Assembly (NCBI GenBank): GCA_964019425.1
Contig: OZ025819.1
Span: 968,566 to 1,032,565, forward strand
Length of the DNA stretch: 64,000 nt
Reading direction: 5' to 3'
Source: Flectonema sp. DT1601
Lineage: Eukaryota > Euglenozoa > Diplonemea > Diplonemida > Diplonemidae
Shown: positions 13,046-57,093 of the stretch, one piece after another
Layout of the letters: every line of letters starts with the position of its first letter
How positions within the stretch are numbered: position 1 is the first letter of the stretch
Translations under genes and position numbers: made by a program
The notes under the pieces: model-generated
Database searches by the model: none
What the model was told of the DNA's origin: nothing
The model's input: the letters and a program-made list of their open reading frames with translations, nothing else

Positions 13046-14368
13046 ATGGATTCAAATAAATTGAGGAAAAGTTTTATTAAATATGAACAATTACAATATT
13101 CACTTAATCAGTTAATCATAACAACAATGGGAACATCAGGACAAGCAACACCCTCTCTGGGTGAGAACTCTGAGCAACAACAGCAGCAACAGGTTGAAAT
13201 TGAAGTGAAGAAAGAAGAGACTCCTCAGAGACCAAAGTTATGGGGAGTCGAAATCAGATTCTTAGTTCTTCCGCTAATGACTGTTCAGAATGCTGGTGCA
13301 GTTCTGTTAATGAGATCAGTCAGAAGTCTCGAAGAAGAAAGTAATTTCAGTTCACAAACTGCAGTAATTATGCAAGAGCTCATTAAAGGAATAACTTGTA
13401 TTATTATCCTTTTGTATACTGAGGGTACCATTACATCTGCGTGGGGGAATCGTAATGAAGCTCTCAAAACCGTATGTTTAGCATTTTCAACCTTTTAAAT
13501 TTTATAAAATTTAAAAAAAAAAATAATAATAATTACAAAAACAGTCGGTACCAGCTATTCTTTATCTAATTCAGAATAATTTTCAATACATCGCCGCGGG
13601 TATCCTTGACGTTGTTGCTTACACCATCTGTGGACAAACGAAAATCTTGTGGACGGGAGTCCTGAGTGTTGTATGTGTTCTTTTAAATATTTCAAAGAGT
13701 AAGCAGCCTTCGAAATGAAAAACAAACCAACACAACTAACACAGATAATCTTATCAAGAACTCTCTCCCTGAACAGATGGTCTGCGCTACTAATTCTCTG
13801 CGGTGGTGTAATTTTAGTTAATTTGGGAGGAAAAGAAAACGCTGAAAGACAAGCCATTGAAATATCGAGTGCTCAGAGAATGGTTGGCGTGTTTTTTATG
13901 GTCACGGCAGCTGCATGTTCATCACTGGCGGGAGTGTACTTTGAAAAGATTCTGAAGGAATGTAAAGTCAGCTTGTGGACTAGAAACTTACAACTTGCAG
14001 TCTACTCCGTATTAACAGGTGTTGTTGGTCTTTACTACTCTACTAAAGATAGAGAACAAATCCTGACTGATGGATTCTTTTACGGTTACACAAAGCTAAC
14101 GTGGACTTGTATCTTAATGAACGCCTTTGGAGGTCTTCTCGTAGGCTGCGTCATCAAATACGCTGATGCCGTTCTGAAGGATGTTTCGATTGGTGCCTCT
14201 CTTTGCTTGTCTACTTTGGGTTCAGTCTTCTTATTCGGCTACCAGTTACAATTCTTAGTTGTCGTCGGTGCTTTGTTTGTTCTTTACGCTGTTTTCGTCT
14301 ACAGCGGTACAGCTCCTAGTCCTTGTGACTGCGTGCAAACAGAATCCACTGAACAACCAAAGAAGTGA
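13046..14368 (+). CDS. Nucleotide-sugar transporter, SLC35A-like, three exons
   Basis: Exons 13046-13471, 13545-13670 and 13745-14368 join in frame to 391 codons. The protein is a multi-helix Golgi antiporter exchanging a nucleotide sugar for the nucleoside monophosphate. The N-terminus is a cytosolic Gln/Glu-rich tail. The first helices follow FLVLPLMTVQNAGAVLLMR. Exon 2 carries the hallmark of the family, PAILYLIQNNFQYIA, followed by GILDVVAYTICGQTKIL, like the PA-x-x-Y-x-x-QNN and Q-x-KI motifs of UDP-galactose, UDP-GlcNAc and CMP-sialate carriers. Exon 3 has the GVYFEKILK helix and a last helix before a Cys-rich tail. The substrate cannot be chosen from the sequence. Without removing the introns the frame is broken by stops, so the splicing is well supported. 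Confidence 0.85.
13472..13544 (+). other. Spliceosomal intron 1 of the SLC35-like gene (73 nt)
   Basis: It begins GTATGT and ends TACAAAAACAG. It lies in phase 0 between AAA-ACC and TCG-GTA. Removing it joins EALKT to SVPAILYLIQNN, exactly the family motif. It is A/T-rich and contains stops in frame. Confidence 0.85.
13671..13744 (+). other. Spliceosomal intron 2 of the SLC35-like gene (74 nt)
   Basis: It begins GTATGT and ends CAACTAACACAG, with a good branch-point-like CTAAC just before the acceptor. It is in phase 0. Removal joins TGVLSV to IILSRTLSLNRW, which restores the helix expected after the QTKIL motif. Confidence 0.85.
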
Positions 14369-44284: not shown

Positions 44285-46363
44285 CTTGACGGGCGGGATT
44301 GGGCGGAAACGCGAAGGCGTCTTCTGCTACTGGCGGGTGACGTAGAGAGGAATCCGGGACCGAGACGCCGTCATGATGGACCCACTTCGGAGCTGCGAGT
44401 TATCAGCTGGAACTGCAGAACGATCAACGGAAGAGAGGAGTTCATAGGAAATATCCTGGGAAAGTACAGCCCTGATGTATTATGCCTGCAGGAAACCTCA
44501 GTTCGGAAGCCTCTACATCACTGGAATTACATCACGTACAGGAGAGATAGACCGGGTAGAGGTGGCGGTATAATCACCATGGTGAAGAGAGGCCTTCAGC
44601 ATGCTTGCTATGAAGTCTGTATCCCTTCGGTTAGAGGAATTGTTGAGACATTGGGTGTCAGGATTAATGATGAGATAAATGTTCTCAACGTGTATTCGCC
44701 GCCAAGTTCTAAGATAGATTTTGATCTCTTCCCTTTGAAGCGTGATGAAAGGTTTATATTTGCTGGTGACTTCAATGCCCATCATAAACTCTGGTCGAAG
44801 AAGACGGATACGAAGGGCTGCCAGCTTCTGGAGTGGTGCAGATCTAATAACCTTCTAATTGCAAACGATCCGGGATTTGTGACGTTGCCGAGACACGGGA
44901 CTTCGCCGGATGCAATCCTACACCACGAGGAGTTACTACTACTACACTTCGGGCTAATAGGTGATGGCACTGAACATGGATCTGATCACTTACCTCTTGC
45001 TGCTGTCTTTGATACGTTCTCACCTCTGGAAACAGTTAACAACCAGGCATCGAAAAAATCAGTCTGGGACTTTAATACAGCTGATTGGTACTCGTTCCGT
45101 CATGATTTGGATTACCGACTTAGCAAGGTGAACAGTCCTCCGAAGGTGGGTATCAGAGCGGCAACATTTAACCGTATCCTGCTTCATGTGGCGAAGAAGA
45201 ACATCCGCAGAAGGCTCAGGATCCAGGGTAAGAGGAGGAGAATGTGGAATTCCTCAACCCCTGAGACCAAACAAGCGAAGGGAAAATTCGTTGCTGAGAA
45301 ACTTGCACAAGGTGAAGGTTTTGCATTCGCCTTTAAGAAGATTAAGGACTTGGATGCCGATGGGGGACAGGACGTCCAAATCCCTGAATTCAGTGAGGAC
45401 CAACTCCCCAGTAAATTTCTCGATCAGTTCGTTAAGACCTCTGTCAGGAAACAACTGAAATCTTCGAAGCTGAAGCCAAGTGATTACGTAGGTGCTTGTG
45501 GACCTCTGGTGATGTCTGAGCTTGAGCGCGCCATCAAGAAGGTTAAAACTGGTAAGGCTCCTGGTCCTGATGGAATCCACGGGGCGATGCTGAAGAACCT
45601 TTCTGCAACCGGTAGACGTTTTCTCTTAGCGGTGTTCAACGACTCCTGGCTCTCAGCTAGAGTTCCGAAGGTCTGGAAAGAGGGTATGATCAAACCGGTA
45701 TACAAACCGGGTAAACCCAAAGAAAAGCTATCCAGCTACAGACCGATCACGTTGACATCTGTAGTCGGTAAAATGCTTGAACGGATAATTTACGACAGGC
45801 TAATGTATTGGTTGACGTCAAATAATGCCTTGTCCTCCATTCAGGCAGGCTTCAGAAGGGGTAGGAATACTTGCGAGCAAATCTCACTGCTGGTCAATGC
45901 GCTTCATGGTGCGAGAAAAGGTGGCAAGAGTTCGATACTGCTCTCTTTCGACTTCACTGAGGCATTTGATAGGATAAATCATGTTAAACTGATTGCTAAA
46001 ATGGTGACGATGGGGATTCCTTCACCATTCATCGGATGGGTCGCTAACTTTCTGACGCGAAGGAAGGCAAAGGTTAGTGTCAATGGCAATCTGAGCGCAT
46101 ACAGAACTGTGACGAAAGGTGTTCCGCAAGGGTCGATTGTTGGGCCTCTCCTTTATCTGATATATGTCGACGACCTGGCTAAGAAACTTGAGAAGACCGG
46201 ATGTGTTTCAGCACTCTACGCAGACGACACAGCTTGTGTGGTTTCGAATAAGGATTTTAAAGTAACTTACCGGATGGCGCAATTAGTCCTTGGGTTAGTA
46301 GATCGTTGGTGCAAAGATAATGACATGGCACTGTCGGTTTCGAAGACCTGCGGGATGCCGGTG
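44285..46363 (+). pseudogene. ORF2 of element G: 2A peptide, endonuclease, RT (truncated)
   Basis: Open directly after the ORF1 TGA in the same frame. The leader has DGRDWAETRRRLLLLAG, then the 2A motif at 44339-44362, then the endonuclease: VISWNCRTI, LQETSV, GDFNAHHKLW, GSDHLPLAA. RT: KAPGPDGIHGAMLK, LSFDFTEAFDRINH, GVPQGSIVGPLLYL, LYADDTACVV. The first in-frame ATG is at 44579, already inside the endonuclease, so no AUG start fits. Coding ends a few codons after KTCGMPV, where foreign inverted sequence brings a TAG. Confidence 0.85.
44339..44362 (+). other. 2A ribosome-skipping peptide, element G
   Basis: Encodes DVERNPGP with the same upstream Leu-rich context as element F, but with different synonymous codons. 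This indicates that the peptide is under selection. Confidence 0.85.
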
Positions 46364-46397
46364 TTTTTATAGCAGGTGTAACCAATTCTGTTCCAAA
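46364..46397 (-). mobile_element. Inverted fragment of the RNase H end of a D-type element
   Basis: About 34 bases are the reverse complement of element D near 30785-30824 (the coding stretch NRIGYTCYKNT), with one or two differences. It is fused by a few shared bases (ccggtg) to G on the left and (aaa) to the 8-bp array on the right. Confidence 0.75.
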
Positions 46398-46567
46398 CCC
46401 GCAAACCAGCAAACCCGCAAACCCGCAAACCCGCAAACCCGCAAACCCGCAAACCCGCAAACCCGCAAACCCGCAAACCCGCAAACCCGCAAACCCGCAA
46501 ACCCGCAAACCCGCAAACCCGCAAACCCGCAAACCCGCAAACCCGCAAACCCGCAAACCCGCAAACC
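46395..46567. repeat. Array 1 of CCCGCAAA (about 21 units)
   Basis: 173 bases of the 8-bp unit, with one substitution near the left end (A at 46408, giving CCAGCAAA). The left edge is fused to the retrotransposon debris; the right edge is element H. Confidence 0.9.
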
Positions 46568-46888
46568 CCGTTACGTGGGAATCAACCATCCGTCGGCCAC
46601 GTCTACCTCTCCACGTATATAAATACATTATCGTTTATCCAAAAGAAAGCATAAACAACGCGTACGCAATATAAAATAAAGAATAAGAAAACATTTAGAA
46701 AAACAGCACCTCTTAGTTTTAGACATAAGACGCAACACGTCCGAGAAGGGAGCATCAGCGATACTTACGATCGTTAATAAACATTCGATATTTACATCTC
46801 GCTACATTAAAAGTATCCGCATTTCATCTTTCATTACTTCTATAGGCTCTCTTTCTCATTTTCGTACTCCCTTAATAAATAAAGTAAT

Positions 46889-48178
46889 ATGAGTTCAGGA
46901 GAAACACCGATGGATATAGATACTACGACGGCTGATAATAAGTTTAATTTCCACTTTCCGGAGCAATTAATGGGAGTATGGCAAGCAGAAACTTCAGAAG
47001 GGCCGATGAAAAGAGGCGTTTACAACATGTCAGATGTACGGAGAAACCTAGGCGAATGGAGTGTTCATGCTGATTCAGGTTTAGTGGATCGGGTTTTAGC
47101 AACAGCATTAAAAAGACCAGTTGAATTGCTGCCACATGTGCAAAATATTCCGATTCAAAGAAAGCAAGTGGTTCTAGCACATCTTAATAATAAAGATCGC
47201 GACTTGTTCAGAAGACTTCTACAAGAATGCGGCGTAACGCAAGGGCTCCCAGTCACAAGGGAAGAATTTTCGACAGTTTTAAGTGAAGCCTCAATTGCAC
47301 TTGGGACGACAAATCAGAGACAAGGACAACTAGCCTCAGGTCAAGCGGTGCTCGGGCAACAGCAAGCAGTACTGAACGCGAACCAACAGCATCAAGCGCA
47401 AGCAACCGCAGCGATTGGCAAACAAAGCGCTGAAGCTCACCAAGGGGTGAGCACATTAGCAAATGCAACAGACCAGGCGCTAAGAACGCATGGGGGAAAG
47501 TTAGATATGATAATGGAGAGTATTAAGGCTACCAATGCCGAACAGAATCATAGAATGAATAGCCAAGATGGAAGGATCGAGCACCTTTTCAACCTTTTGG
47601 AGAATCACATGGTTCAAAGCCAGCCGGTGCAGCCTATTCAAGACGACGTGCAAGCTTTTAGGCAAGAACAAGTGGAAGCTACACCGGATCCTGTTATTGC
47701 AAAGGAGAAATCTGCTGGGATATTCATGACTAAAAATATTGTAAATTCAGGTGATGTGTCCTCGTGGGTAGAAATAATTGCAGAGGGGGAGGCAACAAAT
47801 CTTATCCGTGATCTCCAGCAGAGATACATGAACGGTATCGGAAGGGTAAAACCAGGTGACAAGATTCTCCATCACTATTTCGAACAGTTGTGCGACTGGA
47901 TCCGTGTGGCGGAACGGGTTACTCTATGGCAAGAAATGGATGAGATGGTGAGCCTTGGGAATCGTATCTTGACGACATTGCGTATGCAGACCGGTTGGAT
48001 CGACAGAGGCCTAAAAATGGCCGATATCATTACAGAGCTGGAAGTAGATGACAACGATAGGCTCTCGAAGGCAATGCTTAATGTTGAGAAGAAGAAAAGA
48101 CCGTTTACATGGAAGAAGCCGTCAAGACCGCTCTCGGGAAACGGACGTGGGGATCAAACCCCCAGGAAGCAAAACTGA
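46889..48178 (+). CDS. Gag-like protein of element H
   Basis: 429 residues. The N-terminal domain (about 1-140) is helical and mixed. Residues about 140-215 are Gln/Ala-rich coiled coil (GQQQAVLNANQQHQAQA). A helical region and a basic C-terminus (VEKKKRPFTWKKPSRPL) follow. No zinc knuckle or protease motif is seen. By position it is the structural protein of the element. Its 3' end overlaps the recombinase gene by 70 bases in the -1 frame, suggesting frameshifting or reinitiation. Confidence 0.65.
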   Translation: MSSGETPMDIDTTTADNKFNFHFPEQLMGVWQAETSEGPMKRGVYNMSDVRRNLGEWSVHADSGLVDRVLATALKRPVELLPHVQNIPIQRKQVVLAHLNNKDRDLFRRLLQECGVTQGLPVTREEFSTVLSEASIALGTTNQRQGQLASGQAVLGQQQAVLNANQQHQAQATAAIGKQSAEAHQGVSTLANATDQALRTHGGKLDMIMESIKATNAEQNHRMNSQDGRIEHLFNLLENHMVQSQPVQPIQDDVQAFRQEQVEATPDPVIAKEKSAGIFMTKNIVNSGDVSSWVEIIAEGEATNLIRDLQQRYMNGIGRVKPGDKILHHYFEQLCDWIRVAERVTLWQEMDEMVSLGNRILTTLRMQTGWIDRGLKMADIITELEVDDNDRLSKAMLNVEKKKRPFTWKKPSRPLSGNGRGDQTPRKQN

Positions 48179-49230
48179 ATGCCAACAGCAAGTGGGGGCG
48201 CCTGGGCCCAGGCGTTACCCCGTACAACAAACTGGGAAAACAAATTGGAGCAACGCATCACGGAGACTTAATAACAAGAAATGGTGTGATGGCGGAATCA
48301 GTTCTAAGAATTTTGAGGAGGCAGCCCACAAAGGTAACACATCCAGAAGATCCGGTCTCAGTCAACAGGGCACTAGGAAAGCTGGACAACGTAGTGAAAG
48401 GGATGTGGGCACCGTCAACGCTAGAACAGAGAAAACGATTATGGTCGCGGTTCATGAAATGGGCGATCGAGCGGGACCTGACGAACAATGCGGACACAGC
48501 GGTTCTGTTTACAGTTGCAACAGGGGCGAAGCCTCAGGGCCTTCTGAATTATGCGAAAGGTCTCTCGGCAATAATGAAAAAGATAGGAAGGGACAATCAG
48601 CCTCTCAGAAGCCTAGCAGCAGCTCTAAGGGCGGATGGTGCGGCGATTCCGGAGAGCCAAGCAACACCTATCAAAAAGGAAGTACTGATGCAGTGGGCAT
48701 TGGAACAAAAGCCCGACCTCAAAGCAACAGCGATCATAGCATGGAAGACAATGTCCCGATGGGGGGAAGTGGCAAAGTTATCGTCAGTGCAATTCATAAA
48801 CCTAGATCCACTGCAAGTTATAATAGACTGGGGGCAAACACCAAAGGGAAAGAAGAGAAACCCTTACACAACGTCAAGGTTCGTTGTGATCAGTGGCGAC
48901 CAAGTCCAAGAAATCAACAGACTTATAAGGAAGCTCTCACCGTTCGAAACCCTTTGCAGCACCGATACGGCGAGGGTCGGGGTCTTGTGGAAGCGGGACC
49001 CAGCTATGAAGGGCTACAGCGGCCACAGTGTGAAGAGAGGTGCGATCCAACACATATTCAATTTCAATGCGGAGAACCCGAGGAGGGCCATCCCAACGTA
49101 TCTCATCAGCAGGCTGGCGAAGCACGAGACGTCAAACGAACAGGTTTCAGAAACAACGTTGCGGTACGCAGGGTCCGACAAGAGCATCGCGGTGTCTCTA
49201 CAAACCCAGCGGGTAACAAATCACCTATGA
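48109..49230 (+). CDS. Tyrosine recombinase of element H
   Basis: 373 residues with the catalytic set of the family: Arg217 in TMSRWGEVAKL, His306 and Arg310 in GHSVKRGAI, His339 in SRLAKHETS and nucleophile Tyr353 in LRYAGSD. An N-terminal helical core-binding domain covers about 95-190. It would integrate a circular DNA intermediate into the target without duplication, which fits the clean insertion into the repeat. The TGA overlaps the ATG of the RT gene as ATGA (49227-49230). The set is complete, so the protein could be active. Confidence 0.85.
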   Translation: MEEAVKTALGKRTWGSNPQEAKLNANSKWGRLGPGVTPYNKLGKQIGATHHGDLITRNGVMAESVLRILRRQPTKVTHPEDPVSVNRALGKLDNVVKGMWAPSTLEQRKRLWSRFMKWAIERDLTNNADTAVLFTVATGAKPQGLLNYAKGLSAIMKKIGRDNQPLRSLAAALRADGAAIPESQATPIKKEVLMQWALEQKPDLKATAIIAWKTMSRWGEVAKLSSVQFINLDPLQVIIDWGQTPKGKKRNPYTTSRFVVISGDQVQEINRLIRKLSPFETLCSTDTARVGVLWKRDPAMKGYSGHSVKRGAIQHIFNFNAENPRRAIPTYLISRLAKHETSNEQVSETTLRYAGSDKSIAVSLQTQRVTNHL

Positions 49231-50912
49231 GTGCAACGATGGTTAGGCGGGTGATGCAGAACTTCACACGAAAGTCGAAGATTACTAGAATACCGACGAC
49301 GGAGGAGGAGCGATCGAGTCCACTTCACGTTCACCCTGTTAAGCCGCTGGAGATTCAGAAGGTGGAGAAGATGATGACAAAAGAAACCCTCAAAAGATTT
49401 AAAGAAGTCTGCAACTTAACATTTAACCCAAGAAAAGGCAAGATTAGCTACAGAAAGGGGAATAAGAGGTCGGAATTACAAACTGAGCACGCGAACAAAC
49501 TTGTAGAGGCAGGTATTGCTACCCAGGCAGGCGGCCCTGGAGAACTCGAATCGATTCCATTTACTGTATTAGAAGAGCGGCAAGGAGCAAACAGACAAAG
49601 GTTTATATTATGGACAAGGGAGGCAAACCAGCAGGCTAGGAGCTTAGGCTATGATCCGCAAGTTCCACTTGGACACATTTCATGTTATCTTGATCGGACG
49701 GAGAAGGAGGTCGCATCCCAATGGGATTTAAGAACAGGCTTCTACCAAGTACCGATCCCTCAGGCATCGAGAAGATTCTTCAGGTTTCAAGATAGTGCAC
49801 ACAATTGGTTTGAACTAGCAAGGCTGCCAATGGGACACGTAGCAGCGCCCGAAATCATGCACACCTTGACCGCAACAGTGGCAGGTGATCCAACATATGC
49901 TAAGCCTGAGTTTACTTACAAAGGTGTCGTAACTGACATATGGATAGATAATATTAGAATATCTGGTGATCTTGATAGAGTCGAGGCAGCTACTGATGGT
50001 GTTAACAAAATAGCAGCTGACTGTAATGTGACATGGAAAGCAGCTGAAACTATCCGGGCTGCTACAGACTATGATTTTTTGGGTGTTCATTTTAATCATC
50101 TTGACCACACGGTATCAGTAGCGAAGAAGCTACGCAACAAGATCCAGGACTCAGATCTTACTAATCCTACAGCAGGGGGTGCTGAAAGCTTAGCAGGAAG
50201 GCTTCTGCATGCTTCTGCAATTACGAGGGTTCACCCAGGGAACTTCTGGTATGCGTTAAAGTTCTTTCGAAGGATAACAAATTCACTTAATCGAGGCGTT
50301 TGCGACGTTAACGATTGCATTAGCATTCCGATCTCGGTCAGGAAACAGATAGAGCAGTGGGTAGGTGAGGTATCACAGGTTCGCGAGATCAAATCATTCT
50401 CTGATGACGGCTCTATAATGATGTTTGTTGATGCTTCCAACACCGGTTGGGGTGCAGTTATTATTACTAAGCAAGCAGAGATGAAGATACTCGGGCAACG
50501 CTGGACTACGATGGAGGGCGAGAAGCACATCAATATTCTCGAGGCCAAGGCGCTGCATCTCTCGCTGCAGACAGTTACAGAAGCATCTCATATCGATATC
50601 TACGTTGATAATACTACAGTTGCTTTCTCGACCAAAAAGGGCATGTCTTCACGGTCTTACGACCTAAACAGGGAGGTGATAGGATCTCTCAATCACTTAC
50701 AAAGGATAGGTTGCGCATACACAATCTCATGGGTGTCAACAAAATGCAATCCCGCAGATTATCCTTCACGGGGCACTCCGACTAATCTTAACCAGCTAAA
50801 GCTACTTGCCGATGCAAAACTTGCGCTGGGGCGATTCTTCAACTTGCGCGGTGGTGGTGGGAGCCGGGTCGTGGCCAAGCGCCATTACTCAGTAACCACC
50901 CCTACGCATTAG
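49227..50912 (+). CDS. Reverse transcriptase-RNase H of element H
   Basis: 561 residues from the ATG in the ATGA overlap; the frame is open further upstream only as an overlap with the recombinase gene. RT motifs: WDLRTGFYQVPIP (first Asp), LARLPMGHVAAPEIM, and the catalytic box WIDNIRI, where Asn replaces the second Asp of YxDD. DFLGVHFNH follows. RNase H: MFVDASNTGWGAVI (Asp), INILEAKALHLS (Glu), IDIYVDNTTVAF (Asp) and NPADYPSRG, the N-x-AD-x-x-SR end typical of DIRS-like elements. The frame is intact. Confidence 0.85.
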   Translation: MSATMVRRVMQNFTRKSKITRIPTTEEERSSPLHVHPVKPLEIQKVEKMMTKETLKRFKEVCNLTFNPRKGKISYRKGNKRSELQTEHANKLVEAGIATQAGGPGELESIPFTVLEERQGANRQRFILWTREANQQARSLGYDPQVPLGHISCYLDRTEKEVASQWDLRTGFYQVPIPQASRRFFRFQDSAHNWFELARLPMGHVAAPEIMHTLTATVAGDPTYAKPEFTYKGVVTDIWIDNIRISGDLDRVEAATDGVNKIAADCNVTWKAAETIRAATDYDFLGVHFNHLDHTVSVAKKLRNKIQDSDLTNPTAGGAESLAGRLLHASAITRVHPGNFWYALKFFRRITNSLNRGVCDVNDCISIPISVRKQIEQWVGEVSQVREIKSFSDDGSIMMFVDASNTGWGAVIITKQAEMKILGQRWTTMEGEKHINILEAKALHLSLQTVTEASHIDIYVDNTTVAFSTKKGMSSRSYDLNREVIGSLNHLQRIGCAYTISWVSTKCNPADYPSRGTPTNLNQLKLLADAKLALGRFFNLRGGGGSRVVAKRHYSVTTPTH

Positions 50913-51012
50913 CATTTCGTGTAATTATCTTTACATTAGTTCATTCAAACAAGTTACAATACTTCGTTCTATAGTTTCAAATAAATATGGCAGACTGATT
51001 AGGGTGATTCCC

Positions 51013-54000
51013 CGCAAACCCGCAAACCCGCAAACCCGCAAACCCGCAAACCCGCAAACCCGCAAACCCGCAAACCCGCAAACCCGCAAACCCGCAAACC
51101 CGCAAACCCGCAAACCCGCAAACCCGCAAACCCGCAAACCCGCAAACCCGCAAACCCGCAAACCCGCAAACCCGCAAACCCGCAAACCCGCAAACCCGCA
51201 AACCCGCAAACCCGCAAACCCGCAAACCCGCAAACCCGCAAACCCGCAAACCCGCAAACCCGCAAACCCGCAAACCCGCAAACCCGCAAACCCGCAAACC
51301 CGCAAACCCGCAAACCCGCAAACCCGCAAACCCGCAAACCCGCAAACCCGCAAACCCGCAAACCCGCAAACCCGCAAACCCGCAAACCCGCAAACCCGCA
51401 AACCCGCAAACCCGCAAACCCGCAAACCCGCAAACCCGCAAACCCGCAAACCCGCAAACCCGCAAACCCGCAAACCCGCAAACCCGCAAACCCGCAAACC
51501 CGCAAACCCGCAAACCCGCAAACCCGCAAACCCGCAAACCCGCAAACCCGCAAACCCGCAAACCCGCAAACCCGCAAACCCGCAAACCCGCAAACCCGCA
51601 AACCCGCAAACCCGCAAACCCGCAAACCCGCAAACCCGCAAACCCGCAAACCCGCAAACCCGCAAACCCGCAAACCCGCAAACCCGCAAACCCGCAAACC
51701 CGCAAACCCGCAAACCCGCAAACCCGCAAACCCGCAAACCCGCAAACCCGCAAACCCGCAAACCCGCAAACCCGCAAACCCGCAAACCCGCAAACCCGCA
51801 AACCCGCAAACCCGCAAACCCGCAAACCCGCAAACCCGCAAACCCGCAAACCCGCAAACCCGCAAACCCGCAAACCCGCAAACCCGCAAACCCGCAAACC
51901 CGCAAACCCGCAAACCCGCAAACCCGCAAACCCGCAAACCCGCAAACCCGCAAACCCGCAAACCCGCAAACCCGCAAACCCGCAAACCCGCAAACCCGCA
52001 AACCCGCAAACCCGCAAACCCGCAAACCCGCAAACCCGCAAACCCGCAAACCCGCAAACCCGCAAACCCGCAAACCCGCAAACCCGCAAACCCGCAAACC
52101 CGCAAACCCGCAAACCCGCAAACCCGCAAACCCGCAAACCCGCAAACCCGCAAACCCGCAAACCCGCAAACCCGCAAACCCGCAAACCCGCAAACCCGCA
52201 AACCCGCAAACCCGCAAACCCGCAAACCCGCAAACCCGCAAACCCGCAAACCCGCAAACCCGCAAACCCGCAAACCCGCAAACCCGCAAACCCGCAAACC
52301 CGCAAACCCGCAAACCCGCAAACCCGCAAACCCGCAAACCCGCAAACCCGCAAACCCGCAAACCCGCAAACCCGCAAACCCGCAAACCCGCAAACCCGCA
52401 AACCCGCAAACCCGCAAACCCGCAAACCCGCAAACCCGCAAACCCGCAAACCCGCAAACCCGCAAACCCGCAAACCCGCAAACCCGCAAACCCGCAAACC
52501 CGCAAACCCGCAAACCCGCAAACCCGCAAACCCGCAAACCCGCAAACCCGCAAACCCGCAAACCCGCAAACCCGCAAACCCGCAAACCCGCAAACCCGCA
52601 AACCCGCAAACCCGCAAACCCGCAAACCCGCAAACCCGCAAACCCGCAAACCCGCAAACCCGCAAACCCGCAAACCCGCAAACCCGCAAACCCGCAAACC
52701 CGCAAACCCGCAAACCCGCAAACCCGCAAACCCGCAAACCCGCAAACCCGCAAACCCGCAAACCCGCAAACCCGCAAACCCGCAAACCCGCAAACCCGCA
52801 AACCCGCAAACCCGCAAACCCGCAAACCCGCAAACCCGCAAACCCGCAAACCCGCAAACCCGCAAACCCGCAAACCCGCAAACCCGCAAACCCGCAAACC
52901 CGCAAACCCGCAAACCCGCAAACCCGCAAACCCGCAAACCCGCAAACCCGCAAACCCGCAAACCCGCAAACCCGCAAACCCGCAAACCCGCAAACCCGCA
53001 AACCCGCAAACCCGCAAACCCGCAAACCCGCAAACCCGCAAACCCGCAAACCCGCAAACCCGCAAACCCGCAAACCCGCAAACCCGCAAACCCGCAAACC
53101 CGCAAACCCGCAAACCCGCAAACCCGCAAACCCGCAAACCCGCAAACCCGCAAACCCGCAAACCCGCAAACCCGCAAACCCGCAAACCCGCAAACCCGCA
53201 AACCCGCAAACCCGCAAACCCGCAAACCCGCAAACCCGCAAACCCGCAAACCCGCAAACCCGCAAACCCGCAAACCCGCAAACCCGCAAACCCGCAAACC
53301 CGCAAACCCGCAAACCCGCAAACCCGCAAACCCGCAAACCCGCAAACCCGCAAACCCGCAAACCCGCAAACCCGCAAACCCGCAAACCCGCAAACCCGCA
53401 AACCCGCAAACCCGCAAACCCGCAAACCCGCAAACCCGCAAACCCGCAAACCCGCAAACCCGCAAACCCGCAAACCCGCAAACCCGCAAACCCGCAAACC
53501 CGCAAACCCGCAAACCCGCAAACCCGCAAACCCGCAAACCCGCAAACCCGCAAACCCGCAAACCCGCAAACCCGCAAACCCGCAAACCCGCAAACCCGCA
53601 AACCCGCAAACCCGCAAACCCGCAAACCCGCAAACCCGCAAACCCGCAAACCCGCAAACCCGCAAACCCGCAAACCCGCAAACCCGCAAACCCGCAAACC
53701 CGCAAACCCGCAAACCCGCAAACCCGCAAACCCGCAAACCCGCAAACCCGCAAACCCGCAAACCCGCAAACCCGCAAACCCGCAAACCCGCAAACCCGCA
53801 AACCCGCAAACCCGCAAACCCGCAAACCCGCAAACCCGCAAACCCGCAAACCCGCAAACCCGCAAACCCGCAAACCCGCAAACCCGCAAACCCGCAAACC
53901 CGCAAACCCGCAAACCCGCAAACCCGCAAACCCGCAAACCCGCAAACCCGCAAACCCGCAAACCCGCAAACCCGCAAACCCGCAAACCCGCAAACCCGCA

Positions 54001-54124
54001 AACCCGCAAACCCGCAAACCCGCAAACCCGCAAACCCGCAAACCCGCAAACCCGCAAACCCGCAAACCCGCAAACCCGCAAACCCGCAAACCCGCAAACC
54101 CGCAAACCCGCAAACCCGCAAACC
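51013..54124. repeat. Array 2 of CCCGCAAA (389 units)
   Basis: 3112 bases, exactly 389 units of 8, with no variant that I could see. It lies between elements H and I. All reading frames on both strands are open because the unit has no stop in any phase; this is not coding. Confidence 0.95.
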
Positions 54125-54312
54125 TAACTACAGCGGGGGAACCGGAACTTCGAAGTACAGCCGTCAGCATCATTTTCTCGCCATCGTTTGGCGCATCGAT
54201 ACATCCTATCAGAATATATTTCATTTTATTTAGAGCTGTTTAACTCATGTTTACCTTTCCTTTTCTTTCAGCCGACGGGTTCGACCTATTAAACACTTAA
54301 ACAAAAAGAAAA
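54125..54312 (+). repeat. Split direct repeat A1 of element I
   Basis: 188 bases, matching A2 (56627-56813, 187 bases); A1 has one extra G in its first G run. It contains a polypyrimidine-AG, cctttccttttctttcag, with AG at 54270-54271. Confidence 0.9.
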
Positions 54313-54737
54313 GAGTGGAGAGGGAGGAAGTGATCATCGACTGGCTCAGCACGCCGAAGCTTCGATCAGCAAATCCATTCGTCCCGTCACGTTGGACTGT
54401 GATACGGGGGAGCATGACGGGAGAGATCTGGTTGCTTTTAAAGGACAAGATTCCATTCGGGGCACTCACAAACAGAACAACAGAAATGTTGGATCGGATG
54501 TGGGGAAGGGATCCGAACATGAAGGGATTTACAGCACACTCGATAAAGCGCGGCGCAGCAACAGTACTTTACGAAAACCTTGCAAAGGGAGCGGACTTAC
54601 CGGAGCACATTATCTCTCGGACCCTGAAGCATGCGGAGAAGGAGACAGGGATATCATCAACATCGCTGAGGTACGGGGGTGCGCCAGCCGACATGGCAGT
54701 TGCTCTACAGACTTGGAAAGCCACCCAGCTCTTGTAA
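54313..54737 (+). pseudogene. C-terminal half of the tyrosine recombinase of element I
   Basis: 140 codons from the first ATG at 54315 to TAA. It keeps His75 and Arg79 (AHSIKRGAA), His106 (LKHAEKE) and Tyr120 (SLRYGG), numbered from 54315, but lacks the N-terminal domain and the first catalytic Arg. The left edge joins A1 directly, so the deletion removed gag and half of this gene. Inactive. It resembles the recombinase of H but is clearly a different family. Confidence 0.85.
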
Positions 54738-56365
54738 AACATGCACCGCATAGCATCTCGAGAAGGGGCCAGCGGACGAGGCTACCTGTCACAGCGGAAG
54801 AGAAGGCATCACCGCTTCATGTTTCTTCTATAAAACTAATGAATGTTGACGGGCTTCGAGGGAGGCTGAACGACTCGGCAAGGGTGCGGTTTGATAGTGT
54901 CTGGGATATGGTATTCCCAAGGCAAACACCACCTTCGCGAAGCAGCACACACTCGAAACACTCAACTCTCCAGCCTAGCCATGCTGACGAACTGGTTAGT
55001 CGTTCTATCGCACGCCATGCTGAAGCAGGGGGGGTAATGCAAAATGTGCCGTTCACTGTTGTTGAGGGGAAGGCTGAGGGCTTACGCCAGCGATTCATAC
55101 TCTGGACAAAGGGACTGAACGACTGGGGCGAGGGTACTGGGTACCAAGCCGCCGTTCCACTGAAGCACATCTCAGCTTATCTTGGTGCTGTCAAGCAGGA
55201 GTGCGCCACAACTCGTGACTTCAGAACAGGATTCTTTGCGATTGAAATTCCAACATATGCAAGACATCTCTTCAGGTTCCAAGATAGCTCTGGAAGATGG
55301 TTCGAGATGCAACGACTACCGATGGGACATATTGGCGCCCCGGAACTAATGCACACGCTCGCCGCATCCGCTGCAGGACATCCCGACTACGTTAGAAGTG
55401 ACATTGCCGTGCACTCCGTTGGTATTGACATCTTTATTGACAATATAAGGTACACAGGGGAGCGGAAGCATATTCTCGATGCGACGACAGTGCTTGATGA
55501 GACTGCTTCGGGTATGTCTATTACATGGAAGGCTTCCGACTCACATACTGCTGCGACAACTTACACGTTCCTCGGGGCGGACTTTAATCATGAGCTTCGT
55601 ACGGTAAGGGCTTCTGAGAAAATTCGACGCAAGATAAGTGGTGTGAATCTTTCCAACTGCACAGCTTCACAGCTCGAGTCACTCGGAGGAAGACTTGTTC
55701 ACGCAAGCGCAATTGCAGGCGTTCCGATGGGTCAGTTCTGGTATGCAGTGAAGTTCCTTCGAAGGCTTGTCAACGGTCTCAATAGGGGGACCCGCCGTCC
55801 AGAAGCGAATGTTAACATCCCGCCGTCAGTTACCGCACAACTCTCTGCATGGTGCACTGCGGCTCTCAAGCAACAGACGATCTTCCAGCATGATAGCAGA
55901 AATTCAGTTACAACGTTCATCGACGCTTCTATGACGGGATGGGGCGGCGTTATTATTGATGACTCAACAGCTGAAATTATTATCCTCGGCGGCTCCTGGA
56001 CGCCATCAGAAGCACGCCTCCACATCAACGTTCTCGAATCTCTTGCATTATCTAAGACGCTTTCTCAGCTTCCCGTAAGATATAAGGGTGGCACCCTATC
56101 ACTCTGGATCGATAACACTTCTGTTGTTGGTGCACTTCGAAAGAAACTCTGTGCTAGGTCAGCAGACTTAAACAAGAATGTCGTTCTTTCTTCTATAATA
56201 TTCAAGAACCTCCAGCTCGATGTTAACATCGGATGGGTCGCGTCAGCTAACAATCCAGCTGACATCCCATCACGCCTCCCAGAACACAAAATCTCATCGG
56301 CATCAACACTGCATACTGTCGAACTTGCGCTGCGGAGGTTTATTACAAGCGACGGGGTGGAGTGA
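54738..56365 (+). CDS. Reverse transcriptase-RNase H of element I
   Basis: The frame is -1 relative to the recombinase and overlaps it; no ATG of this frame lies close to the recombinase stop, so a frameshift or a later start (near 54840) is possible. RT: RDFRTGFFAIEIP, MQRLPMGHIGAPELM, and the box FIDNIRY, again Asp-Asn. RNase H: TFIDASMTGWGGVI (Asp), INVLESLALSKT (Glu), LWIDNTSVVGAL (Asp) and NPADIPSRL. The coding frame is intact to TGA at 56363-56365, directly followed by B1. Its motifs match those of H; the rest is strongly diverged. Confidence 0.8.
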
Positions 56366-56626
56366 GGCAGGCCAACCGGTGCCGCTACTCGGACTGCTCA
56401 CTCACATGGCTTTCTGCCACGCTCAGCCGATAGCGACCACCACCTGCGGTCTACTTACCTCACTTCGTGAAAAGAATTTGTGAACTCCTATAGTTTAATT
56501 TCTCTATCCTTCCTAGTGATAGACGAGCTACTTAGTTTTATCCATAGTTTCATGTTTTACTATTACATTTCTTCTACTCTTATCTTTCCTTCCTTTCTTT
56601 CAGGCTGTACAGGAGTTATGGTTCCC
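56366..56626 (+). repeat. Split direct repeat B1 of element I
   Basis: 261 bases, the same length as B2 and apparently identical. It starts right after the RT-RNase H stop. It contains a polypyrimidine-AG, ctttccttcctttctttcag, with AG at 56602-56603. Confidence 0.9.
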
Positions 56627-56644
56627 TAACTACAGCGGGGAACC
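56620..56644. promoter_or_regulatory. Candidate recombinase core site at the B1/A2 junction
   Basis: GGTTCCC (56620-56626) and GGGAACC (56638-56644) form 7-bp inverted arms around the 11-bp spacer taactacagcg. This junction equals the end-to-start joint of a circular form of the element, where the recombinase would cut. The ends of element H, if joined, give the same design. Confidence 0.6.
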
Positions 56645-56813
56645 GGAACTTCGAAGTACAGCCGTCAGCATCATTTTCTCGCCATCGTTTGGCGCATCGA
56701 TACATCCTATCAGAATATATTTCATTTTATTTAGAGCTGTTTAACTCATGTTTACCTTTCCTTTTCTTTCAGCCGACGGGTTCGACCTATTAAACACTTA
56801 AACAAAAAGAAAA
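56627..56813 (+). repeat. Split direct repeat A2 of element I
   Basis: 187 bases, copy of A1. It is followed by a short spacer (cccacccaccgaccccct) before B2. Confidence 0.9.
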
Positions 56814-56832
56814 CCCACCCACCGACCCCCTC

Positions 56833-57093
56833 GGCAGGCCAACCGGTGCCGCTACTCGGACTGCTCACTCACATGGCTTTCTGCCACGCTCAGCCGATAG
56901 CGACCACCACCTGCGGTCTACTTACCTCACTTCGTGAAAAGAATTTGTGAACTCCTATAGTTTAATTTCTCTATCCTTCCTAGTGATAGACGAGCTACTT
57001 AGTTTTATCCATAGTTTCATGTTTTACTATTACATTTCTTCTACTCTTATCTTTCCTTCCTTTCTTTCAGGCTGTACAGGAGTTATGGTTCCC
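56833..57093 (+). repeat. Split direct repeat B2 of element I
   Basis: 261 bases, copy of B1. Its right end GGTTCCC abuts array 3 at CGCAAAC. Confidence 0.9.

Follow-up and report, generated by a model that had tools for sequence, protein, structure and literature searches.

The locus described here raises the question of why two retrotransposon-like elements with strongly diverged proteins interrupt a short tandem repeat at the same phase. The elements, H and I, lie in an array of the 8-letter repeat CCCGCAAA within the final 64 kb of contig C40 (1,032,565 bp), a stretch referred to at its full length as the window; the assembly comprises 89.5 Mb in 92 contigs. The two insertions split the array of the window into three stretches:

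46394..46568, + strand, proximal CCCGCAAA array, ~22 copies
46568..51012, + strand, element H, 4445 bp, bounded by AAACC and CGCAAA
51011..54124, + strand, middle CCCGCAAA array, 389 copies with zero variants
54125..57093, + strand, element I, 2969 bp, bounded by AAACC and CGCAAA
57092..64000, + strand, distal CCCGCAAA array, reaching the end of contig C40 with the C-rich strand towards the 3′ end

A first-pass annotation had described H and I as strongly diverged and as sharing the flanks AAACC and CGCAAA. Both statements hold: the reverse transcriptase (RT) proteins of the window copies are 40% identical, and the flanks are as claimed at 46568-51012 and 54125-57093. The chance of H and I alone sharing a phase is 1 in 8. 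Based on the genome-wide evidence below, H and I very probably belong to a TATE/VIPER-type set of elements in which a tyrosine recombinase (YR) joins a circle, opened at the joint between repeats B and A, to the CCCGCAAA array at one point.

Insertion register across the genome

We used two whole-genome pattern searches to place element ends against the array, with all eight registers (gaps 0-7) allowed. Among elements ending in GATTC or GGTTC, 82/86 3′ junctions in the whole genome fall in one exact register: GATTC-ended elements do so at 19/19 places, and GGTTC-ended elements share the same register at 63/67 places. The GGTTC exceptions are C30:9581, C41:1006223, C83:7917 and C48:13540, the last of which keeps the register with a base change. 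The search for 5′ junctions returned 190 matches, nested ones included; 47 of the 100 matches listed came with letters and gave 35 distinct junctions, and all 35 distinct junctions among the matches listed start at AAACC, with eight kinds of 5′ end as tallied from the rows. The seven kinds of 3′ end (families H1-H3 and I1-I4) resemble one another only in the final GATTC or GGTTC and in the few bases that precede it. Tabulated in this way, the flanks of H and I relatives bear out the single register proposed in the first-pass annotation.

The array boundaries in 60 RT loci were counted after merging array runs ≤3 nt apart; some of these loci overlap, so a few boundaries are counted twice. Array starts are at the CCCGCAAA phase in 47/59 cases, of which 45 follow GATTC or GGTTC. 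The array stops at AAACC or AAACCC in 30/38 cases; of the remainder, six belong to one non-coding repeat that sits at a different, likewise fixed phase, and two are of other kinds. The 12/59 off-phase starts consist of L014, in which a base variant lies immediately within a locked array, seven mid-sequence truncations and four others. The seven truncated elements (L015, L028, L047, L058, L065, L066 and L067; 7/11 off-register starts) are continued directly by array at varied phases, and in each case the sequence that is truncated at the array runs on in other copies.

Junctions also share an orientation. In the whole-genome searches, 84/86 3′ junctions point outward, and the median distance to the closest contig end is 11.6 kb (8/86 places are on contigs with interpolated lengths). 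The inward-pointing exceptions, C30:25627 and C51:16294, are phase-locked and close to left contig ends, and their orientation suggests an inversion, a fusion or a misassembly.

Crossover position and proposed mechanism

Full-length copies carry an internal joint between repeats B1 and A2 that, in elements of this kind, probably corresponds to the junction of a circular intermediate. The number of C residues at this joint (n) is 5 in H1, 4 in H2 and H3, which share a joint, and 3 in I1, I2, I3 and I4. The target has three C residues, the 5′ junction n-1 and the 3′ junction four, so that n+3 = (n-1)+4, a balance that is exact for six joint types. The C residues of joint and target are aligned with a fixed one-base offset, and the sole common register places the joint TTC opposite the target AAA, with CC shared. 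Alignment of CCC on CCC would be expected to yield a 3′ junction with three C residues, of which there is no row in either whole-genome 3′ search; therefore, the position seems to be set by the enzyme and not by base pairing alone. Taken as bookkeeping, the C counts argue for enzyme-set positions and a conservative exchange.

The first-pass annotation had also claimed that there was neither target duplication nor loss. The bases do balance; however, this can be read only to within the shared CC. Because the same two-base CC identity flanks both sides of the elements, a 2-bp duplication of CC would look just like the absence of any target duplication, and the CC is indistinguishable from a shared core. 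Gain or loss of whole 8-bp array units is invisible at the junctions.

In the mechanism that we propose, a circular DNA copy would open at its B|A joint, and the tyrosine recombinase would join it at one exact point to the CCCGCAAA array. The crossover would lie in the CC that joint (TTC-CC-N) and target (AAA-CC-CGC) have in common, yielding the product AAA-CC-element-CC-CGC with zero net gain or loss of bases; the orientation of the array would then set that of the element.

Structure and class of the elements

The components of element H are as follows:

46569..46888, + strand, repeat A1, 320 bp, with 99% identity to A2 of sister copy L010
46889..48178, + strand, gag-like open reading frame (ORF), 429 aa, with only a sub-threshold Pfam match (Not3)
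48109..49230, + strand, tyrosine-recombinase ORF, 373 aa, assigned by motif and context only
49230..50912, + strand, coding part for RT-RNase H, in a frame open from 48048 that overlaps the YR ORF
50863..51010, + strand, single B repeat, 148 bp; the A2-B2 unit is absent in this copy and present in sister copies

The three ORFs of H follow the order gag, YR, RT-RNase H and occupy three different frames, and the recombinase ORF overlaps that of gag by 70 nt. The H recombinase contains the motifs SRWGEV, HSVKRG, KH and LRY, and the RVT_1 and RNase H matches of the RT-RNase H product are weak, under the curated cut-offs. Repeat A, the first 320 bp of H, and repeat B, its last 148 bp, recur at the 3′ end of L010, L011 and L013, where they form A2 and B2. 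Compared with the B1-A2-B2 end of these sister copies, the window copy is a structurally incomplete short form (A1-ORFs-B) that has lost its A2-B2 unit.

The components of element I are as follows:

54125..54312, + strand, repeat A1, with one G difference from A2
54318..54734, + strand, C-terminal part of the recombinase, with HSIKRG, KH and LRY
54731..56365, + strand, RT-RNase H
56366..56626, + strand, repeat B1, 261 bp, identical to B2
56627..56813, + strand, repeat A2; the B1/A2 joint reads ...GGTTCCCTAAC...
56833..57093, + strand, repeat B2

Element I is internally deleted, with A1 joined to the C-terminal part of the recombinase and both gag and the N-terminal recombinase part missing; the split repeats are complete despite this deletion, and the joint GGTTCCCTAAC probably corresponds to the circle junction. 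Polypyrimidine-AG stretches (CTTTCCTT...TTTCAG) at 54255, 56584 and 57051, within A and B of I, look like trans-splice acceptors.

With gag, a YR recognized by its motifs, RT-RNase H and split direct repeats, H and I look like TATE/VIPER-type retrotransposons. The repeat arrangement A1-ORFs-B1-A2-B2 is present in both lineages, in sister copies for H and in the window for I. Among 44 loci with their own 3′ end phase-locked, 34 have one A2-B2 unit, eight, including H, have none and two have two (L014 was moved from none to one based on its length, which is that of a one-unit copy, and L028 was excluded because it is truncated before its own end); such variation in unit number is the expected outcome of recombination between direct repeats. 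The recombinase motifs SRW[GA]EV, HS[VI]KRG, KH and [LI]RY occur in 8/8 family representatives. Short inverted arms are found at the ends of the elements: in the H families GGGAATC is matched by GATTCCC, in I1 GGGAACC is matched by GGTTCCC, and in I2-I4 the shorter GGGAAC is matched by GTTCCC. RT proteins of H families and I families are 40-44% identical. Counts of RT relatives from the whole-genome H and I searches are lower bounds, and further RT relatives with 43-49% identity occur in contig interiors, at least among the matches listed.

Several observations weigh against this assignment and against insertion at one enzyme-set point. Only 1/8 recombinases has a Pfam Phage_integrase match (E 0.019), a recombinase search of PDB gave no relevant match, and hhalign of the recombinase against six phage integrases was not significant. 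The distance from AAACC to GGGAA differs among families, from 7 to 13 nt, a variation that is unusual for YR sites, and no RT was linked in this analysis to the 5′ ends TTTCCTTGGGAA and CTTACCACTTGGGAA, two of the eight kinds. In addition, copies within a family may have spread by subtelomeric exchange rather than by separate insertions, and independent insertions are argued firmly between families only. Because the Pfam, PDB and profile-profile tests gave no confirmation, the YR label is based on motifs, ORF order, split repeats and precise junctions; the first-pass identification of tyrosine-recombinase retroelements stands to that extent. The RT profile search of PDB likewise matched no chain.

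Dispersed relatives

A further family, M (L032-L038), has the same recombinase motifs and split repeats, and its RT is 46-47% identical to those of H families and 43-46% identical to those of I families. Six copies of the M 3′ end, GGACAATTAC, have five different flanks, one of which is shared by L036 and L037; L035 is truncated. M is thus a dispersed family with unrelated flanks, and array targeting does not extend to all relatives. In an unrooted tree of eight RT proteins from this genome, H families and I families each form a supported group with M branching between them, and the side on which M falls depends on the midpoint root. Either array targeting was lost in M or it was gained separately in H and I. 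One I3 copy, L062, is located mid-contig; it shares 99.6% identity with array copies, but the loss of B2 makes its junction unreadable. In the recombinase frame of M (L034 and other copies), a run of ~21-residue repeats (SDLGLYRNANQLQVDLSVGTP-like) precedes the catalytic part.

The first-pass annotation had treated the array as the preferred target of the whole lineage. For H and I the specificity is strict, with one phase; however, the dispersal of M makes "lineage" too wide a term. Relatives in unrelated DNA or at other phases, which the same annotation had singled out, do exist: M lies at unrelated flanks, and 12/59 array starts are off-phase, seven of them at truncated elements.

Alternative explanations and the nature of the array

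The first alternative, which we regard as possible but doubtful, is that the array is an ordinary telomere and that the elements are TATE in telomeric repeats, as in Leishmania braziliensis. The position of the array is consistent with this: left contig ends open with TTTGCGGG repeats in 18/27 cases examined (with noisy C8 and C14 taken as array, and C18, which has only ~9 array letters, as non-array), and 3/3 right ends examined finish in CCCGCAAA. TTAGGG, TTTAGGG or TTTTAGGG as three consecutive units has zero occurrences across the assembly, and TTGGGG types have one, in the interior of C80, versus four for the reversed control pattern. A TERT RNA-binding domain is present in the assembly, and seven of the 11 off-register array starts cap mid-sequence truncated elements, as array addition to broken ends would. 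The polarity, however, is opposite to the telomere rule at 21/21 array-bearing contig ends examined, with the G-rich strand at 5′ ends and the C-rich strand at 3′ ends. Passages of PMC9498494 describe telomeres as G-rich at the 3′ end and take G-rich repeats at a contig 5′ end as interstitial or misassembled; the rule itself holds at 0/21 array-bearing ends examined, and none of the 27 left ends examined opens with the C-rich strand. Ends with reversed polarity include the end of contig C40 (57092-64000), L064, L069, L070, L073-L077, L079-L082 and L084-L091. No end-to-end fusion signature (CCCGCAAA...TTTGCGGG within 30 nt) was found in the assembly.

Two accounts of these ends are available: either true telomeres lie beyond unassembled satellite, or the array is a telomere with reversed polarity. 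The latter could be extended to chromosome ends that consist of (CCCGCAAA)n with a C-rich 3′ strand, a telomerase with a G-rich template and a guild of YR elements tuned to the inverted telomere, a picture that we consider unlikely. Should the array be the telomere, the reversed polarity would call the general strand rule into question; otherwise, the genome carries a satellite that acts like a second kind of end structure. Counts of a 24-base array word across the assembly, 57,242 on one strand and 58,639 on the other, would put the total array at about 0.9 Mb. Literature pairing the CCCGCAAA repeat with telomeres of any organism was absent among the matches listed, and PMC8061765 gave no match to telomere words. 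The safe-haven reading of the first-pass annotation, under which the array may be favoured as a harmless insertion site, fits the H and I lineages only, and the reversed polarity leaves its telomeric part unsupported.

It is distinctly improbable that the target is picked by an array-bound host factor (tethering) and that the recombinase has little sequence preference beyond CC. Tethering would be in keeping with the use of one target by the H and I lineages, despite their RT divergence, and with the dispersal of M, which has the same motif set. Alone, however, it predicts insertions at several CCC steps and in both orientations, whereas one step and one orientation dominate.

Very unlikely, in our estimation, is that the shared junction derives from one ancestral insertion that was later shuffled by subtelomeric homologous exchange or gene conversion. 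Copies within families are near-identical (RT identity of 99-100% in I1 and mostly 98-99% in H1), and the junctions lie in the part of contigs where exchange is common; however, the register is the same across eight kinds of 5′ end and seven of 3′ end, and the C count at the 5′ junction follows each family's own joint, whereas exchange would not yield n-1 each time. That the fixed register is an assembly artefact from collapsed similar repeats is extremely improbable: although the starts of C8, C14 and C29 look error-rich to the eye and C48 and C57 begin inside an H copy, flanking array lengths vary between copies and the families differ in sequence.

Comparison with known elements

Insertion by a tyrosine recombinase at one point of the array, the reading that we favour, has its closest parallel in TATE. 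In L. braziliensis and other kinetoplastids, TATE resembles H and I in its gag-like, YR and RT-RNase H ORFs and in its split direct repeats A1...B1-A2-B2, according to passages of PMC6681497. The analogy drawn in the first-pass annotation is well founded, since TATE is described in parts of PMC2696322 as inserted at a precise position of a short terminal repeat, the telomeric GGGTTA, with a TT duplication; the 2-bp identity at its flanks is TT, whereas here it is CC. Unlike that of TATE, the target here is CCCGCAAA, the polarity of the array is reversed relative to a telomere, several families use the one target, and the host, which appears to have cis-introns, is thus probably not a kinetoplastid. 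The VIPER elements of trypanosomatids share the ORF order and split repeats, and TATE likewise has the gag-YR-RT-RNase H order, but array targeting is not described in the passages on VIPER in PMC12278014 and PMC6681497; in its behaviour, dispersed family M is closer to VIPER. In Diplonema papillatum, a euglenozoan outside kinetoplastids, >60 ORFs like transposon proteins, TATE among them, are reported in PMC10161547, whose passages on the TATE-like ORFs describe no site, junction or array.

A literature search joining DIRS, tyrosine recombinase, telomeric repeat, insertion and Ngaro found no paper that combines them. Ngaro and PAT-like elements insert without target duplication, and in the Ngaro, PAT and DIRS-1 groups the recombinase is downstream of RT-RNase H, a placement that differs from that found here, where YR is upstream. 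To our knowledge, target choice by YR retrotransposons is poorly understood, and we know of no fixed target for most of them. Ngaro and PAT-like elements share with H and I split direct repeats in the same order, according to passages of PMC6681497. The kind of element is known from TATE, whereas the target, the register common to families and the readable crossover are new, as far as our searches show. Several families strike one base step of a near-perfect array and retain their B|A joints, so the crossover is readable from sequence and testable in vitro, and dispersed M offers a natural comparison for what confers specificity. Neither the array pattern nor relatives of the H RT were found in viral contigs, genome and metagenome collections being outside this search.

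Other features of the window and host

The host looks euglenozoan: paraflagellar rod proteins gave 27 matches in the assembly (best E 2.4e-94) and none in the 14 genomes that served as controls. Within the window, one host gene is interrupted at 13472-13544 by a canonical intron of 73 nt, the removal of which keeps the frame; for a second intron further along the same gene, the frame was not restored by the ends tried. Cis-introns are nearly absent in kinetoplastids and numerous in diplonemids and euglenids, according to passages of PMC7859406; the host is thus more probably a diplonemid or a euglenid. Between 36 and 22253, every listed ORF ≥150 aa is on the + strand with long T tracts nearby, like the directional gene clusters of Euglenozoa. 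Three further ORFs with RVT_1 lie between 31950 and 46372.

At 44579-46400, an endonuclease-RT (INGI/L1-like) ORF ends right past its RT domain match and is followed directly by array, off-register, and thus looks like a capped broken end. Together with the truncated elements, this cut ORF before 46394 would fit broken ends healed by array addition; end joining between element and array would look the same.

A non-coding repeat starting with CTAGAGATACC follows array CCCGCA in 6/6 cases (L010, L015, L020, L040, L044 and L065) and is a second kind of phase-locked insertion. In L065 it is 647 bp long, with a T-rich end and with stretches similar, on inspection by eye, to tRNA-derived boxes.

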